A model generated the notes under the pieces. It was given only the letters and a program-made list of their open reading frames with translations. It did no database searches and was not told where the DNA came from. The translations under genes were made by a program, and so were the position numbers. From a virus, in the IMG/VR virus record IMGVR_UViG_3300009194_000002, positions 1-52,765 of that record: 52,765 nucleotides of DNA; one strand, given 5' to 3'. Below are positions 2,779 through 31,147 of this stretch, piece after piece. Every line of letters begins with the position of its first letter. Position 1 is the first letter of the stretch.

Positions 2779-2970
2779 ATGGAAGATCTTATTAAAAAGT
2801 ACGCGCAAATGAGTGACCCAGACGCCCAGGAAGCAGTAGAACTTTTACAGCTGTATAAGGACCGGCCAGCTGAACTACTTAACCACCTGGACCAGAACTT
2901 AAGCAGTAAAGTAGCAAGATCAGAAGTATTAGAACTTTTATATATGGATCTACTTACTTGTTTACAATAA
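2779..2970 (+). CDS. Small hypothetical helical protein (63 aa)
   Basis: ATG 2779 follows the stop of the regulator gene by one base, so the two are likely coupled. The protein is acidic and Leu-rich and predicts as two or three helices. No motif is recognised. Its close coupling to an XRE-type regulator suggests a partner or antagonist, but nothing in the sequence proves it. Confidence 0.75.
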   Translation: MEDLIKKYAQMSDPDAQEAVELLQLYKDRPAELLNHLDQNLSSKVARSEVLELLYMDLLTCLQ

Positions 2971-3025
2971 GAAATTAGTCTGATCTATAGTTTTAACTAA
3001 TTAGCTGTGTAGAATAAGAAATTAG
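2971..3025 (+). repeat. Inverted copy of the late 47-bp repeat unit
   Basis: This 55-base stretch is the reverse complement of 29013-29067 with one internal mismatch plus one at the last base. A further partial copy runs on to about 3043. It begins right after the stop codon of the previous gene and lies upstream of promoter P3. RNA made through here from P2 would be complementary to late mRNA. It could instead be a DNA binding site shared by both regions. Confidence 0.9.
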
Positions 3026-3136
3026 TTTACATAGCTAATTAGTTTAGTTATATTTAGTATTAAAGAGTATACACAAGAAAACAAAAGTTAAAATAGGTTA
3101 ACAGTAATATATTACATTATTTAGGATAATTTTTGC

Positions 3137-3165
3137 TTGCTATTACAGAAATAAGGGTATATAAT
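3137..3165 (+). promoter_or_regulatory. Early promoter P3 for the replication block
   Basis: TTGCTA (3137-3142) and TATAAT (3160-3165) are 17 bp apart. It follows the repeat region and precedes the 38-residue gene at 3219 and the Rad50-like gene. The -35 box is weaker than in P1 and P2, so an activator or a later timing is possible. Confidence 0.75.
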
Positions 3166-3338: not shown

Positions 3339-4925
3339 ATGGCTAATATCACTAAGGTAGAAGCCTTCGGCCTTTGGTCCCACTACGAAAGTACTTTTAA
3401 GTTTAGTCCAGGGCTTACAGTTATAACTGGACCGAACGACAGCGGGAAAAGTAGTCTTATAAGAATTATACGCTGGGTCTTTTTAGGCGAACCCCAGGGC
3501 GACGCTTTCTTATTTAAGATCAAGGACGAAAGCGGCGAAGTATCTAAAGAAACTGACGAGGGTAAAGCTGTTATATATTTAGATAACGGCGTTAAGATTA
3601 CTAAGATCCGCCGGGGAAAGAAGACCATTTATAAACATAGAGGCTTTAAGGAACCATTCGAAACTGCTACAGTACCCGAGGAAGTAAAGGACGCGTTAGG
3701 GATAAAGTATTATAGCTTCGGGGACTTTGAAGCGGCCCTTAATTTTGCCTTCCAGCTAGAACCGCCTTTTTTAATATCAGAAGCAGATAGCGCCGGCGCT
3801 AAAGTGCTGGGACAGCTGGCAGGTACAGAAGCGGTAGATCTAGCTATCGGGAAGGTAAGAAAAGATACTTACAAGGCCAGGCAAGAAAAACTACAGGCAG
3901 AAAAAGAAGTAGAAAAATGTAACTCTAAATTACTAGAGTACGAAAACTTAGATCAGCTTAAAGAACAGTTAGAAATCTGCGAAGATCTTATAGAAAGTAT
4001 AGATCAAGCGGCAGAACGTGCTGATAGGTTACAGGAATTAAATAAAAGGTTGGATAAGACAAGCTACAGACTAGAAACGTTAAATAAAGAACTGGACCGT
4101 CTGGCAGTTATCCCGACCTTAGAAAAGGACCTAAAAGATATAGAAACAGCTAACAGGCGTTACGAAACTCTTTTAGATCTTTATAAAAGGTTAGATCAAA
4201 GCCAGACTGAAATAGATCACTTAACTAAAGAACTAAAAGTCTATAAGGGTCTACCAGAAGCAAGTCAGATTGTTAATAACTTAGGTTTTATCCACAGAAA
4301 AGTAGAGTTATTAACAGACTTATCCACAGATTACGACAAAGTTATACGTAATATCCAGGAAGCCGATAAAGTATTAGAGAAAACTAAAGGTATTAATAAA
4401 GCGGCTAAGATCCTGGAAAACTTAGAAACTAACAGGAACAGACTAGAAAGATTGGAAGACATACGTTATGATTTTATAACTACTGACACTAATTTTAAGA
4501 ACTTAGAATTAGAATTATTAAGGCTTTCAGAGGTTGAAAAAGCGGATCAGATACTTAAAGACTTACTTAAGAAGCAGGAAAGATATAGTAAGCTATCCGG
4601 TCTTAAGGAAGCTTTCGGCGATACCGACGCTAACCTATTCGCGATTAATAGTAGCTTAGAAAGATTTACAAAGCTGGAAGAAGTCCAGGAAAGCGTTAAT
4701 AAGTTAGTTAGTGATTGGGATAAGCTAATGGATCTAAGAAGTCTTAAGACTAGATACAATTTAGATAAAAAGGAAGTAGACTTAATTACAGACTACTTAG
4801 AGGAAGCTAAAGAAAACGTCGAAGCCTGGGAAGAAGAACTTAATAAAGCCTGGGAAGAAACAGACGGGATCTGTCCTTTATGTGAAGAACCTATTAAAAA
4901 TATTAAAGATCATAACCACCATTAA
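3339..4925 (+). CDS. Rad50/SbcC-like ATPase, N-terminal half with zinc hook (528 aa)
   Basis: Residues 1 to 160 form an SMC/Rad50-type ATPase N-lobe with Walker A GPNDSGKSS at 31-39. A long coiled coil of about 340 residues follows. The protein ends soon after CPLC, the zinc hook that joins Rad50 dimers. Walker B and the ABC signature are absent; they are in the separate protein at 5597. Together with the Mre11-like protein at 6595 it should form an end-processing nuclease complex for recombination-dependent replication (T4 gp46/47 relatives). The coiled coil is far longer than the one in the C-half, so the two cannot pair along their full length as in whole Rad50. Confidence 0.9.
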   Translation: MANITKVEAFGLWSHYESTFKFSPGLTVITGPNDSGKSSLIRIIRWVFLGEPQGDAFLFKIKDESGEVSKETDEGKAVIYLDNGVKITKIRRGKKTIYKHRGFKEPFETATVPEEVKDALGIKYYSFGDFEAALNFAFQLEPPFLISEADSAGAKVLGQLAGTEAVDLAIGKVRKDTYKARQEKLQAEKEVEKCNSKLLEYENLDQLKEQLEICEDLIESIDQAAERADRLQELNKRLDKTSYRLETLNKELDRLAVIPTLEKDLKDIETANRRYETLLDLYKRLDQSQTEIDHLTKELKVYKGLPEASQIVNNLGFIHRKVELLTDLSTDYDKVIRNIQEADKVLEKTKGINKAAKILENLETNRNRLERLEDIRYDFITTDTNFKNLELELLRLSEVEKADQILKDLLKKQERYSKLSGLKEAFGDTDANLFAINSSLERFTKLEEVQESVNKLVSDWDKLMDLRSLKTRYNLDKKEVDLITDYLEEAKENVEAWEEELNKAWEETDGICPLCEEPIKNIKDHNHH

Positions 4926-25457: not shown

Positions 25458-26048
25458 ATGGAAACTATAAAGATTAATAATATAGACTATAAGATCGAAG
25501 ATAGGGACTACTGGTTAAATAACGGCGATAATGTAAGCGCTATCCATATTAACAGGGGTTTACTATCTGTTTTAAGTGAACTGCCCGTACAGCGCTATAA
25601 TCGCTATTTAATGGAACTTGTAAGCAGGATCTTAATTTATGAAACTTTCTGGCCCGAAGATCCCGGGATAGATCACCAGCAGTTCGGTAATACGCTTTAC
25701 AGTTTTATGAGGTCTAATGAAGTTAGATCCTGGCTTCTAGAAGAAGATAACATACCTAATAGGGTAGTTATCAGAGATTTAGTTTACGATGTTATTATCA
25801 GCGAAAAGGGCGACCAGTTCCTGGACGCTACCGACTGTACAGGCCAGATCAAGCAAGGCCAGCTTAAGATCTTCATATTAAGCGGGATCCCAGAGCAGAG
25901 GAAAAAGGCTGTATTATTACACGAAATAACCCACGGCTTGCTACACGAAGCAGGGTTAGAGGATCACGACGACGATAAGATAGTAAGGCCGCTTACTAAT
26001 ATGCTTCATAACTTCTTTTTAGATAATGACTTTAGCTTTTTAAGGTAG
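25458..26048 (+). CDS. Metallopeptidase with a degenerate duplicate domain (196 aa)
   Basis: Residues 105 to 195 carry VLLHEITHGLLHEAG, an HExxH zinc site like those of ImmA/IrrE-type phage peptidases. Residues 1 to 95 appear to be an older copy of the same fold: I..NIDYKI, then HINRG, then RYLMELVSRILIYE where HEITH should be, then FGNTLYSFMRSN beside LTNMLHNFFLDN. The zinc ligands are lost in the first copy. Such peptidases can cut regulators, but no target is shown. Confidence 0.75.
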   Translation: METIKINNIDYKIEDRDYWLNNGDNVSAIHINRGLLSVLSELPVQRYNRYLMELVSRILIYETFWPEDPGIDHQQFGNTLYSFMRSNEVRSWLLEEDNIPNRVVIRDLVYDVIISEKGDQFLDATDCTGQIKQGQLKIFILSGIPEQRKKAVLLHEITHGLLHEAGLEDHDDDKIVRPLTNMLHNFFLDNDFSFLR

Positions 26049-27530: not shown

Positions 27531-27836
27531 TCCAGTTTTGAAATTCTTAAAATCAAGGTCTATAAGTACTAGTACTATTAACTATTAGTTATACTACTAC
27601 TATACTATAACTATTATTATATTATTATATTATATATAGTATTATTAGTATTAGTAGTAATTGGTTTTGGTTGTTGGTTTGTTTTTAAAAGCTGGGGAAG
27701 TAAAAGAAAAATAAAATAAAAAATATATAAGGTTGTGTCTAGGGGGGAGGGGGTTGTAATTTTTTAAAAAATAATTTCAGAAAAACTTTAGGTTAACCCC
27801 CCCTCCCTAAAATAATTATTATATATTTTTTCTGAA
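27531..27836. repeat. Duplicated AT-rich element, copy B
   Basis: Matches the contig junction (52630-52765 plus 1-205) in the same direction. It holds a long AT stretch with TACTAC/GTAGTA-type dyads (about 27575-27660), a GT-rich run, G6-A-G5 at 27742-27753 and C7-T-C3 at 27797-27807. The G and C tracts and the A/T tail are unchanged between copies, and the sequence between them is not. It lies between the early terminator and the late promoter. No gene is seen in 27448-28146. Confidence 0.9.
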
Positions 27837-27921
27837 AACCCCTTTAGAGCGTAAATATATGGAAAATTCGAACAGTTTAAAGGGTTATTGCGGTTATTTG
27901 CTGTAAATTATTGAAATTTAT

Positions 27922-27930: not shown

Positions 27931-28058
27931 GGTAAATGAAGAAGTCTAGTTAGAAGTTTTACAGTTTTCTTTAATTCTTTATTTACAGTAAAGAAATCTG
28001 TAACTAATTACATATTTTTACATAATTTATTTAAAGAAGTAAAGAAGTTTTTATGAAA

Positions 28059-28146: not shown

Positions 28147-28899
28147 ATGGCAACATTTCCAAAAATTGACCTACCAAAAAATTACGATCCTCATGATCCA
28201 GAGTTAAAAAAGAAGCTGCACCCTAAAGCAGACGAGAAGAATTTAATCTTAGAAAGAAGTTACGGCCCTATCTTAGCTTGTGGGTCTAAAAAGAATAATG
28301 GCTGTAGAAATGTAGCTGGGAAAGGGACCGATCATTTAGGTTATGGTCGCTGTAAGTATCACGGTGGGAATAATACAGGCCCTAAAACTAAGAAGGGTAA
28401 AGCTAAATCTAGCCAGAACGCTAGGAAGCACGGCTTTTATTCTGACGCTTTACACGACGAGGAAGCCGAACTTTATAATGAGCTTTTAGAGAAAAAGGAC
28501 GAGATCCTAAGTTTACAGCACGAAATAACAGCGCTTAGGGCTAAGATAGTACTCTATCTAAAGAAATGGAAAGATAAATATAACCGACGCTATGAAGAAC
28601 AGCTTAAAGAAACTGGGGACGAAAAACAGGCCAGGGCTTACGCTGAACTTAAGACTAGAGTTAAATTTCAGCAGAAATCAGACGGGGGTTACAGTTATTA
28701 TACAGCTGGAACAATCGAGGATAACGCCTTAGATCGGGCCTTAAACACGTTAGCCCGGCTTATTGAAAAGCACGCCAGACTTACAGAGGATACGCCAGAC
28801 GATCTAGTTGGTAGAATTAATAGCGAATTAAGAGCCGCTAGCCAGGGCGAAGTTAATGTAAGCTGGGGATCTGGGCCACAAAAAAGGCAAGACAAGTAA
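28147..28899 (+). CDS. terS: Terminase small subunit-like protein (250 aa)
   Basis: Residues 45 to 75 hold Cys and His (ACGS, CRN, CKYHGGN), a zinc-finger-like stretch. It is followed by GPKTKKGKAKSSQNARKHG, a pattern common in small terminase or terminase-associated proteins of phages. A long charged helix runs from 95 to 165. Preceded by AAAGGGGG, and it is the first late gene. It should recognise phage DNA for packaging; the 47-bp array directly downstream is a candidate site. The usual gene order (small, then large terminase) supports the call. Confidence 0.75.
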   Translation: MATFPKIDLPKNYDPHDPELKKKLHPKADEKNLILERSYGPILACGSKKNNGCRNVAGKGTDHLGYGRCKYHGGNNTGPKTKKGKAKSSQNARKHGFYSDALHDEEAELYNELLEKKDEILSLQHEITALRAKIVLYLKKWKDKYNRRYEEQLKETGDEKQARAYAELKTRVKFQQKSDGGYSYYTAGTIEDNALDRALNTLARLIEKHARLTEDTPDDLVGRINSELRAASQGEVNVSWGSGPQKRQDK

Positions 28900-28943
28900 A
28901 AACTTCGTAAAATAAACGGTTTGCGAATATTTACATAAGAAAA

Positions 28944-29131
28944 TTAGATAGAACTATAGATCAGATTAATTTCTTGTTTTACACAGTTAATTAGATAGAA
29001 CTATAGATCAGATTAATTTCTTATTCTACACAGCTAATTAGTTAAAACTATAGATCAGACTATTTTCTTATTCTACACAGCTAATTAGTTAAAACTATAG
29101 ATCAGACTATTTTCTTGTTTTACATAGGAAA
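28944..29131. repeat. Four tandem 47-bp repeats
   Basis: Units begin at 28944, 28991, 29038 and 29085, exactly 47 bp apart, each holding ACTATAGATCAGA and a run TTCTT followed by TACA. Units 3 and 4 are nearly identical; units 1 and 2 share TAGATAGAAC at the start. Fragments lie on either side. There are no spacers, so it is not a CRISPR array. An inverted copy lies at 2971-3025. Candidates are a packaging site, a repressor operator set, or iterons. Confidence 0.95.
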
Positions 29132-29155
29132 ATAGTTACGACTGGGGGCGATCTT

Positions 29156-29286
29156 ATGGCAGATCAGCAAAACCGACACTTAAAGAGGTTAAAGAGGCAC
29201 TAAAACGGGCTGGGCTAAACCCTGTAGATTATAAGCATTTACCTTATAAAAAGTTACTGCATTTAGCTGGGTATAATACAGAATGA
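29156..29286 (+). pseudogene. Frameshifted small gene (about 43 aa if restored)
   Basis: ATG 29156 has TGGGGGCG upstream and reads MADQQNRH before an early stop. After the run of four A (29169-29172) the frame one base back reads smoothly (KPTLKEVKEALKRAGLNP, then HLAGYNTE) to TGA 29284, which overlaps the next ATG. One lost A would explain it. The site does not fit a standard slippery heptamer. A mutation or a sequence error are both possible. Confidence 0.6.
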
Positions 29287-29459
29287 CCCGCAAGAATAAA
29301 GATCCTTGCCGTGGTTGTGTTTGCTACAGCTGTAGAAAGTCCAGCCGCCACGGGGTAATACAAGCTTGCCCCCGCTGTAATGAGTGTAACGGTATTAAAC
29401 TACAGATTTGTAGGAAGTCGGCCCCTACAGAAGAAAAGGGGGTACCTTTCGAATGGTAG
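29283..29459 (+). CDS. Cysteine-rich zinc-binding protein before large terminase (58 aa)
   Basis: Eight Cys lie in two groups, CRGCVCYSC (9-17) and CPRCNEC (29-35) plus C43, likely binding zinc. The ATG overlaps the stop of the frameshifted gene, and its own end overlaps the large terminase start by 7 bases. A small DNA-binding gene at this spot is often an HNH nuclease, but the HNH residues are not seen here. Confidence 0.75.
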   Translation: MTRKNKDPCRGCVCYSCRKSSRHGVIQACPRCNECNGIKLQICRKSAPTEEKGVPFEW

Positions 29460-31147
29460 ATACTGACGGAAACCTGGCCTATAAGACAGACTTTGATTAT
29501 AAAGAGGATATAGACCCGATTAGTGGGGCGCCTAAATTGGTGGCCGTCCCGAAAACAGCTAAAGCGGCCAGGGAAGGTGTGCCTTATAATACTATTAATG
29601 ATTTAGGTGATCTTTTTAAGCGTGAAAACTTAAGGGAAGCCTGGCGCGTATTCCGGAAGAATGATCCGTTTGATTACCAGGTAGAAATAGCTGACGCTAT
29701 TATATACAGCTGTGTACAGGGCTTAGGCTGGCAGTTTGTGGTATTAATGACCCGCCAGGCAGGAAAGAACGAAACTTCTGCCTTTATACAGCAGTACTTA
29801 TTATTATACGGCTGGTACTTTGGGGAACAGGTAAGCGGCGTTAAGTTTGCGCCGGTACATAAACCACAGGTACAGGCTTCTATGGATCGCCTGGAAGGTG
29901 CGCCTACTAAAGATAGCGGCGGCCTGGCCGGATCAGTAGTTACACGGCAGTTATGGTCTAAGTCTGACGGCTTTAAGTACCATATCGGACCGCCGCGGGA
30001 CAGTAACAAATGGACCTTTTTATCTATTAACCCGACTGCTAACGTAGCTTCCCAGACTGCTTTTACGCTTTTAGAAGGTGACGAAGCCCAGGACATAGAC
30101 CGGGATAAGTGGGAACGCGACGCCCAGCCTATGGCTTCTTTCAATAATGCGACTACCGTATTCTGGGGCGTAGCCTGGACGAAAGACTGTTTTATCTATG
30201 AAGCGATCCAGCAGTCCTACGATATGGAAGAAAGGCTAGCTAAAAAACTGGATATAGGAAGGCCGAAGCTTGTTTTTAAGGTAGACGCTGACCGAGTTAA
30301 GCAGGTTAATGATAATTACCGGAAGGCTTACGAAAACCAGGTAGCGCGTTTAGGTGAAGATCATATCGCTATACAGACACAGTATAAATTAAACTTTGTT
30401 GACAGTATAGGTCGCTTTTTTAGTGACGAGAACGTGGCCCGAATGTATGCTAATAACTATCGTATGCGGGTAGGTCCGGAAAAAGGAAAGACTTACATAT
30501 TCAGTACTGATGTAGCGGGCCAGGAAGAAAACCCGACTGATCTAAAAGATTTTACAGCTGGAAAAGACAAGCGAGATAGTACGGCTTTAATTATCGGGGA
30601 ATTACAGAATGACGGGACAGTAGTTCCGGTTTGCTTGTATCATTGGACCGGGGAAAAGCACACAAGGCAAAGAGAAACTATAAAAAAGATTTTAAAACAT
30701 TGGAACGTAATAGGCGGCGTCTGTGACGCTACAGGGATCGGGGAACCCTTGGCTTATTACCTAATAGAAGAATTCCCGAGATTGGATATTATACCGTACA
30801 AGTTTAAGGCTAACGGGGACGAGAATAAATCAAAGCTGGGATATTTAGCTTATAATTATAACAGCCTTGATCTTATTAAGATCCCGGGACAGCCTACAGG
30901 GGAAGGTAACAAAAGGGCCGCGGAATTATGGAAAGAGCTTCGCTGGCAGATTAAGCACTTAATTAGAGAAGCGAAGAAAAAACAGCAGATTAACTGGCAC
31001 GTGCCGCAAAACGCGACGCCGAGATATGAAGGCCACGTACCACACGACGACTTAGTTACAGCACTATTTTTATTATTGCACGGCGCCTTTAATATTAAGG
31101 GCGGCCAGTACGGTGTAAGTATCCCAGACAGACGAGATCTTATTTAG
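29453..31147 (+). CDS. terL: Terminase large subunit (564 aa)
   Basis: The ATPase domain shows RQAGKNET (101-108) as the Walker A-like site and LLEGDEAQD (207-215) as Walker B with its catalytic Glu. The nuclease domain shows STDVAGQ near 353, GVCDATGIGEP near 423, and HDDLVTALFLL near the end, with the acidic residues that cut DNA. It drives DNA into the head and cuts it. Length is usual. The start at 29453 follows AAAGGGGG. An opposite-strand frame of 156 codons over it is a shadow. Confidence 0.95.
   Translation: MVDTDGNLAYKTDFDYKEDIDPISGAPKLVAVPKTAKAAREGVPYNTINDLGDLFKRENLREAWRVFRKNDPFDYQVEIADAIIYSCVQGLGWQFVVLMTRQAGKNETSAFIQQYLLLYGWYFGEQVSGVKFAPVHKPQVQASMDRLEGAPTKDSGGLAGSVVTRQLWSKSDGFKYHIGPPRDSNKWTFLSINPTANVASQTAFTLLEGDEAQDIDRDKWERDAQPMASFNNATTVFWGVAWTKDCFIYEAIQQSYDMEERLAKKLDIGRPKLVFKVDADRVKQVNDNYRKAYENQVARLGEDHIAIQTQYKLNFVDSIGRFFSDENVARMYANNYRMRVGPEKGKTYIFSTDVAGQEENPTDLKDFTAGKDKRDSTALIIGELQNDGTVVPVCLYHWTGEKHTRQRETIKKILKHWNVIGGVCDATGIGEPLAYYLIEEFPRLDIIPYKFKANGDENKSKLGYLAYNYNSLDLIKIPGQPTGEGNKRAAELWKELRWQIKHLIREAKKKQQINWHVPQNATPRYEGHVPHDDLVTALFLLLHGAFNIKGGQYGVSIPDRRDLI

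Follow-up and report, generated by a model that had tools for sequence, protein, structure and literature searches.

The window, the whole stretch of 52,765 nucleotides analysed here, is the IMG/VR virus record IMGVR_UViG_3300009194_000002, positions 1 to 52,765. Two of its control regions share a repeated sequence, one upstream of an early SbcC-like gene and the other in the gap between the small (terS) and large (terL) terminase genes (Table 1). The first-pass annotation had described a late tandem repeat between the two terminase genes, and we found it there as four 47-bp units covering 28942-29129. This late array lies in the leader of a gene group made up of two small ORFs and terL. A weak promoter-like sequence, TTTACA-18-TATAGA, starts at 28978 and spans the junction of units 1 and 2, and another match reads TTTACA-19-TATAGA; as in the rest of the window, promoters were assigned by consensus matching, and those within the late array are weak (9/12). 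The early array, at about 2939-3026, consists of one full and one partial (half) inverted unit together with an extra plus-strand copy of a sub-motif. It lies at and upstream of both early promoter-like sequences, and its full unit covers the last 15 or so bases of the ORF that precedes it.

Table 1. Features of the early and late loci, in window coordinates.
Feature	Position	Strand	Remark
XRE/HTH_3-type small DNA-binding protein, 93 aa	2496..2777	+	candidate binder; Pfam HTH_3 24.4 bits (cut-off 23)
63-aa ORF between HTH gene and array	2779..2970	+	no assigned function
Full 47-bp unit, inverted	2956..3002	-	42/47 identical to late unit 3
55-nt segment	2971..3025	-	reverse complement of 29013-29067 with 2 differences
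Near-perfect dyad of facing TACAYAGCTAATTAG copies	2995..3044		copies at 2997-3011 (minus) and 3028-3042 (plus); 18-bp stem as RNA
Promoter-like TTTACA-17-TATATT (10/12)	3026..3054	+	plus-strand motif copy over -35 and spacer
Promoter-like TTGCTA-17-TATAAT (10/12)	3137..3165	+	upstream of SbcC-like gene group
SbcC-like ATPase gene	3339..4925	+	in temperate relatives directly downstream of immunity/cro region
terS, terminase small subunit	28147..28899	+	PHROG 1889
Late 47-bp unit 1	28942..28988	+	
Late 47-bp unit 2	28989..29035	+	
Late 47-bp unit 3	29036..29082	+	
Late 47-bp unit 4	29083..29129	+	unit end forms stem with 29130-29137
terL, terminase large subunit	29453..31147	+	PHROG 5909

The window ends in a 31-bp exact end repeat, so the contig is probably complete and circularised. 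Essentially all genes, including every gene with a family match, lie on the + strand; because the genes are on one strand, the GC skew of the window gave no information. The nearest annotated relative is Bacillus phage vB_BboS-125, to whose annotated terminase-like protein the window TerL is 71% identical in amino acids. When the proteins of relatives were matched against the window, neither a CI repressor nor an integrase like theirs was detectable, and for this reason the phage looks lytic. An independent contig of the same phage (L003/L014) carries a late array identical to that of the window; it spans the late half only, and the early copy rests on one assembly, that of the window. In the small ORF after the late array (29157-29290; about 1529-1660 in L003), an A-run is one A shorter in the window and the ORF is interrupted, and in L003 a 43-aa frame is open; this is either a sequencing error or real variation. 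The protein encoded at 25458-26048 has a weak M78/ImmA-like metallopeptidase match (Pfam E 0.006; PHROG 1233).

The inverted early/late match and its motifs

Direct alignment confirmed the inverted match reported in the first-pass annotation, with exactly two mismatches in the 55-nt segment. The match extends to 2939-3024 and 29014-29099 (87%, 86 nt), and other registers of the late array against the early copy give 80-88% matches. Using BLAST, we obtained 92% identity over 75 nt between the early and late copies. When the terS/terL gap was compared with the whole genome, the inverted match scored 95.4 bits, and in a control of 200 dinucleotide-preserving shuffles of the gap, in both orientations, the best score was 40 bits and none exceeded it. 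The early/late inverted match is real and far beyond chance.

Identity is high along the whole 47-bp unit, including positions without an evident role, and all five full units have AACTATAGATCAGA unchanged. The near-palindromic core of the site is ARCTAATTAGYT. The sub-motif TACAYAGCTAATTAG, which was found by inspection of the window and then counted, occurs five times with up to two mismatches (0.5 expected), always within the two loci; none of the shuffles gave as many. Its copies lie at 2997 (minus), 3028 (plus) and 28980, 29027 and 29074 (plus), so that both orientations are present at the early locus. The copy at 3028 stands outside the 47-mer context and is oriented to transcription like the late copies. 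A second motif, CTTCTTTAYTTCTTTA, is present at early promoters (216-244, 1163-1191) and is repeated, inverted, upstream of terS (28009-28053); in vB_BboS-125, a palindromic form of it occupies three intergenic places (9792, 16640, 40885), including an early promoter and a position upstream of terS.

In the collections searched, no phage other than the same phage carries a copy of the 47-mer. A DNA search with the repeat found no match in phages, and in plasmids only a 30-nt match with E=0.8. A 16-mer pattern matched 49 stretches in viral contigs, each a single copy apart from the same phage, which we took as chance, and a 22-mer pattern matched the same phage only.

Predicted operators at the same two loci in relatives

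Relatives were collected by TerL-based searches (64-71% TerL identity), and 12 contigs were examined in full, together with vB_BboS-125. The 47-mer is absent from all of them. Two relatives have a BLAST-detectable early/late pair that involves the terS/terL gap, G005 (60 nt, 72%) and G011 (88 nt, 70%). Each of these pairs scores above all 200 shuffles, and their sequences are unrelated to that of the window. The first-pass annotation had treated orientation in relatives as informative; we checked it and found that both pairs are likewise inverted, with no same-orientation copies, which carries little weight in G005 because its shared element is palindromic. A long complementarity between the gap and the early region was not BLAST-detectable in G006, G008, G010 and others.

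The early member of the G005 pair lies upstream of an S24 CI gene and adjoins a serine integrase gene. What the two members share is a palindromic, operator-like site of 16 bp, GTTAY-N6-RTAAC, given by a matrix that included the gap sites. In G005, G006, G008 and G010 (65-67% TerL identity), each terS/terL gap has two such 16-bp operator-like sites. A second matrix was built from the immunity-region sites of G005, G006 and G008 only and scanned over these three genomes and G010. It turned out that among ~54,000 positions the gap sites ranked 4/9 (G005), 9/13 (G006), 7/10 (G008) and 8/9 (G010); the training sites and gap intervals had been chosen by eye after sequence inspection, and the test was thus held out for the matrix and not blind. 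In each of the four gaps there is a sigma-70-like promoter with a 17-nt spacer, its -35 lying within operator 1 and its -10 immediately followed by operator 2. S24-type CI repressors are encoded in G005, G006 and G008, and G010 was judged by motif only.

The divergent cI start and the start of SbcC are separated by 650-920 bp in G005, G006, G007, G008 and G011, and in the window 843 bp separate the start of the HTH gene from SbcC downstream. The spacing is alike, and therefore the two loci of the window match the two operator-sharing loci of relatives. The link between these loci that recurs in relatives is a predicted operator, a protein site, and not long complementarity, since three of the four relatives lack long early/late complementarity.

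Several other features were seen in these genomes. Further high-scoring CI-operator-like sites lie outside the immunity region in G005 (9777, 13756), G006 (16144, 11050), G008 (11774, 15771) and G010 (13364, 9318), which suggests a set of dispersed operators. The G011 pair (L211, L212) is located at 1348-1435 and 27770-27857, and its early member lies just beyond a tyrosine integrase gene, in a possible attP region. We rejected this pair as a CI operator; the immunity region of G011 has a different motif (GTGTCTT...). A promoter-like sequence from the locus upstream of SbcC also recurs, as a direct copy, ahead of the primase region (18665/27462 in vB_BboS-125, 52162/8110 in G002, 24902/34530 in G009); a primase alignment for relatives found vB_BboS-125 only.

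We also observed a two-copy element of ~200-270 bp, AT-rich and with a G-run/C-run stem, at 52673-204 of the window (across the contig ends) and at 27570-27838. One copy precedes the late genes and the other stands where the early genes begin, roughly half a genome away. The element is present in 11 of 13 relatives (G001-G011, L008/L009 entries) and was not seen in the partial contigs G012 and G013. It is direct in the window, G001, G002 and G009, and inverted in G004-G008, G010, G011 and vB_BboS-125. The L003/L014 contig starts at this element, as if the assembly broke at that repeat. It is possible that the element serves as an origin or packaging element.

Proposed regulator-binding arrays and rival explanations

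We consider it probable, from the sequence comparisons, that one phage regulator has DNA binding arrays at both places. The early array would occupy the promoter region of the SbcC operon, which corresponds in position to the immunity/cro region of the temperate relatives, and the late array the terL leader. Both would be bound by a single protein, for which the XRE-type 2496 gene product is a candidate, and the SbcC and terL operons could in this way be coupled, coordinated or delayed in their expression. The copies may be inverted because the core of the site is near-palindromic and operator blocks could be laid down in either direction. The motif recurs at the two control regions beyond chance, and the same loci hold predicted operators in relatives. 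This evidence comes from relatives whose motifs differ from that of the window; for the window 47-mer we infer the protein site, its binder and the direction of effect. Several observations stand against operators. No cognate S24 CI was detected in the window, where only small HTH proteins were found, among them those from 10996 and 11593. The promoter matches in the late array are weak, and the site in G011 looks to be of another kind. At 47 bp, the unit far exceeds the usual length of an operator, and most of it is conserved. A site of 12-16 bp does not require such conservation, which would call for a recent duplication or a larger complex. As no CI of the relatives' types is detectable, the window regulator, if any, would be another protein. 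The 2496 protein had no relatives in viral contigs and one weak phage match, so the site and the protein are linked by position only.

The first-pass annotation had offered two explanations, an antisense brake on terminase expression and a shared protein site next to the XRE-type gene. The latter is now the better supported, by four relatives with predicted operators on promoter-like sequences. For the antisense brake, early RNA containing 2971-3025 would pair with the terL mRNA leader at up to four sites and lead to RNase III cleavage or blocked terL expression. Both loci lie among + strand genes, and on the + strand no terminator-like hairpin was found between the promoter at 1163 and position 2971, so read-through into the early copy is possible. 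With 92% complementarity over 75 nt, the predicted early/late duplex of about -104 kcal/mol (a net gain of -48 over the separate folds, and -46 to -51 per late unit) is physically possible, and the detectable pairs in G005 and G011 are inverted too. However, no relative supports an antisense brake specifically; G006, G008 and G010 share the predicted operators at both loci without the long complementarity. Half of the complementary stretch would sit inside a strong early hairpin, predicted with an 18-bp stem within 2994-3044 (region z = -4.3), which would compete with the pairing. The motif also occurs in both orientations at the early locus, and the copy over the 3026 promoter is oriented as the late copies are. 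An Rfam scan of the window gave no match, and single 47-nt units folded no better than shuffles. We therefore regard the antisense brake as very unlikely, and likewise a combined arrangement in which the early operon RNA would restrain the terL leader in trans by antisense pairing, through a distant inverted copy of the four-fold repeat, while the 47-bp units double as protein sites.

It is also unlikely that the units act at the DNA level as replication-origin iterons, as a centromere or as sites recognised by the terminase (pac), in which case the early array would be another such site in inverted orientation. The tandem units do adjoin terS, and in phages of the SPP1/P22 type the small terminase binds within terS or close to it. 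However, the terS/terL gap is not a conserved place: it is absent in vB_BboS-125, and relatives have unrelated sequence there. Since this position near terS is not conserved in the family, a pac site was rejected as the main explanation, and the two-copy G-run/C-run element, conserved in the window and 11 of 13 relatives, is a better origin or packaging candidate. Quite unlikely, too, is a non-functional relic, left by a recent inverted duplication of the tandem repeat into the early region. The high identity along the whole unit, at positions without an evident role as well, the restriction of the 47-mer to the same phage in the collections searched, and the overlap of the early copy with an ORF end would all fit a relic. 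However, both copies lie in control regions, at loci that share predicted operators in relatives, and a stand-alone motif copy lies over a promoter-like sequence; both points speak against a relic.

Significance and comparison with known systems

Our analysis suggests that in a group of Bacillales phages (Elmenteitavirus relatives) the early regulatory region and the large terminase gene are connected in their control. The temperate members have predicted CI operators as far as a promoter-like sequence within the terminase cluster, and the window phage, apparently lytic, has a longer site of another kind at both of these loci. Thus, these phages offer a testable case in which a regulatory connection may have been kept while the protein and the site were replaced. 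In a literature search that was not exhaustive, we found no description of such an early/terminase control arrangement.

The closest comparison is with the predicted CI operators of the temperate relatives (G005, G006 and G008, and G010 by motif), where the same two loci share a motif at promoter-like sequences. The relatives have a 16-bp palindrome and an S24-type CI, whereas in the window the units are of 47 bp and no CI was detected. In cluster A mycobacteriophages (L5, Bxb1), stoperators or operators of about 13 bp occur up to 30 times per genome, predominantly in one orientation to transcription (PMC6550527, PMC9283540). The proposed likeness is that one phage regulator acts at many dispersed sites, some of them at promoters. 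The window, in contrast, has two loci and mixed orientation, and so departs from the one-orientation pattern of L5-type stoperators. The phiH antisense RNA of a halovirus, where a virus RNA duplex reportedly leads to processing (cited in PMC6210493), is a model for the antisense explanation. The window has a distant inverted copy instead. The phiH RNA is reportedly a counter-transcript of the same locus. For the binding arrays that we favour, a further comparison is the SPbeta master repressor MrpR, which is reported to be a single regulator controlling the lytic programme of a Bacillus phage (PMC10516654). It differs from the window candidate in that it is another type of protein and SPbeta is temperate. 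MrpR is also said to have dispersed binding sites.
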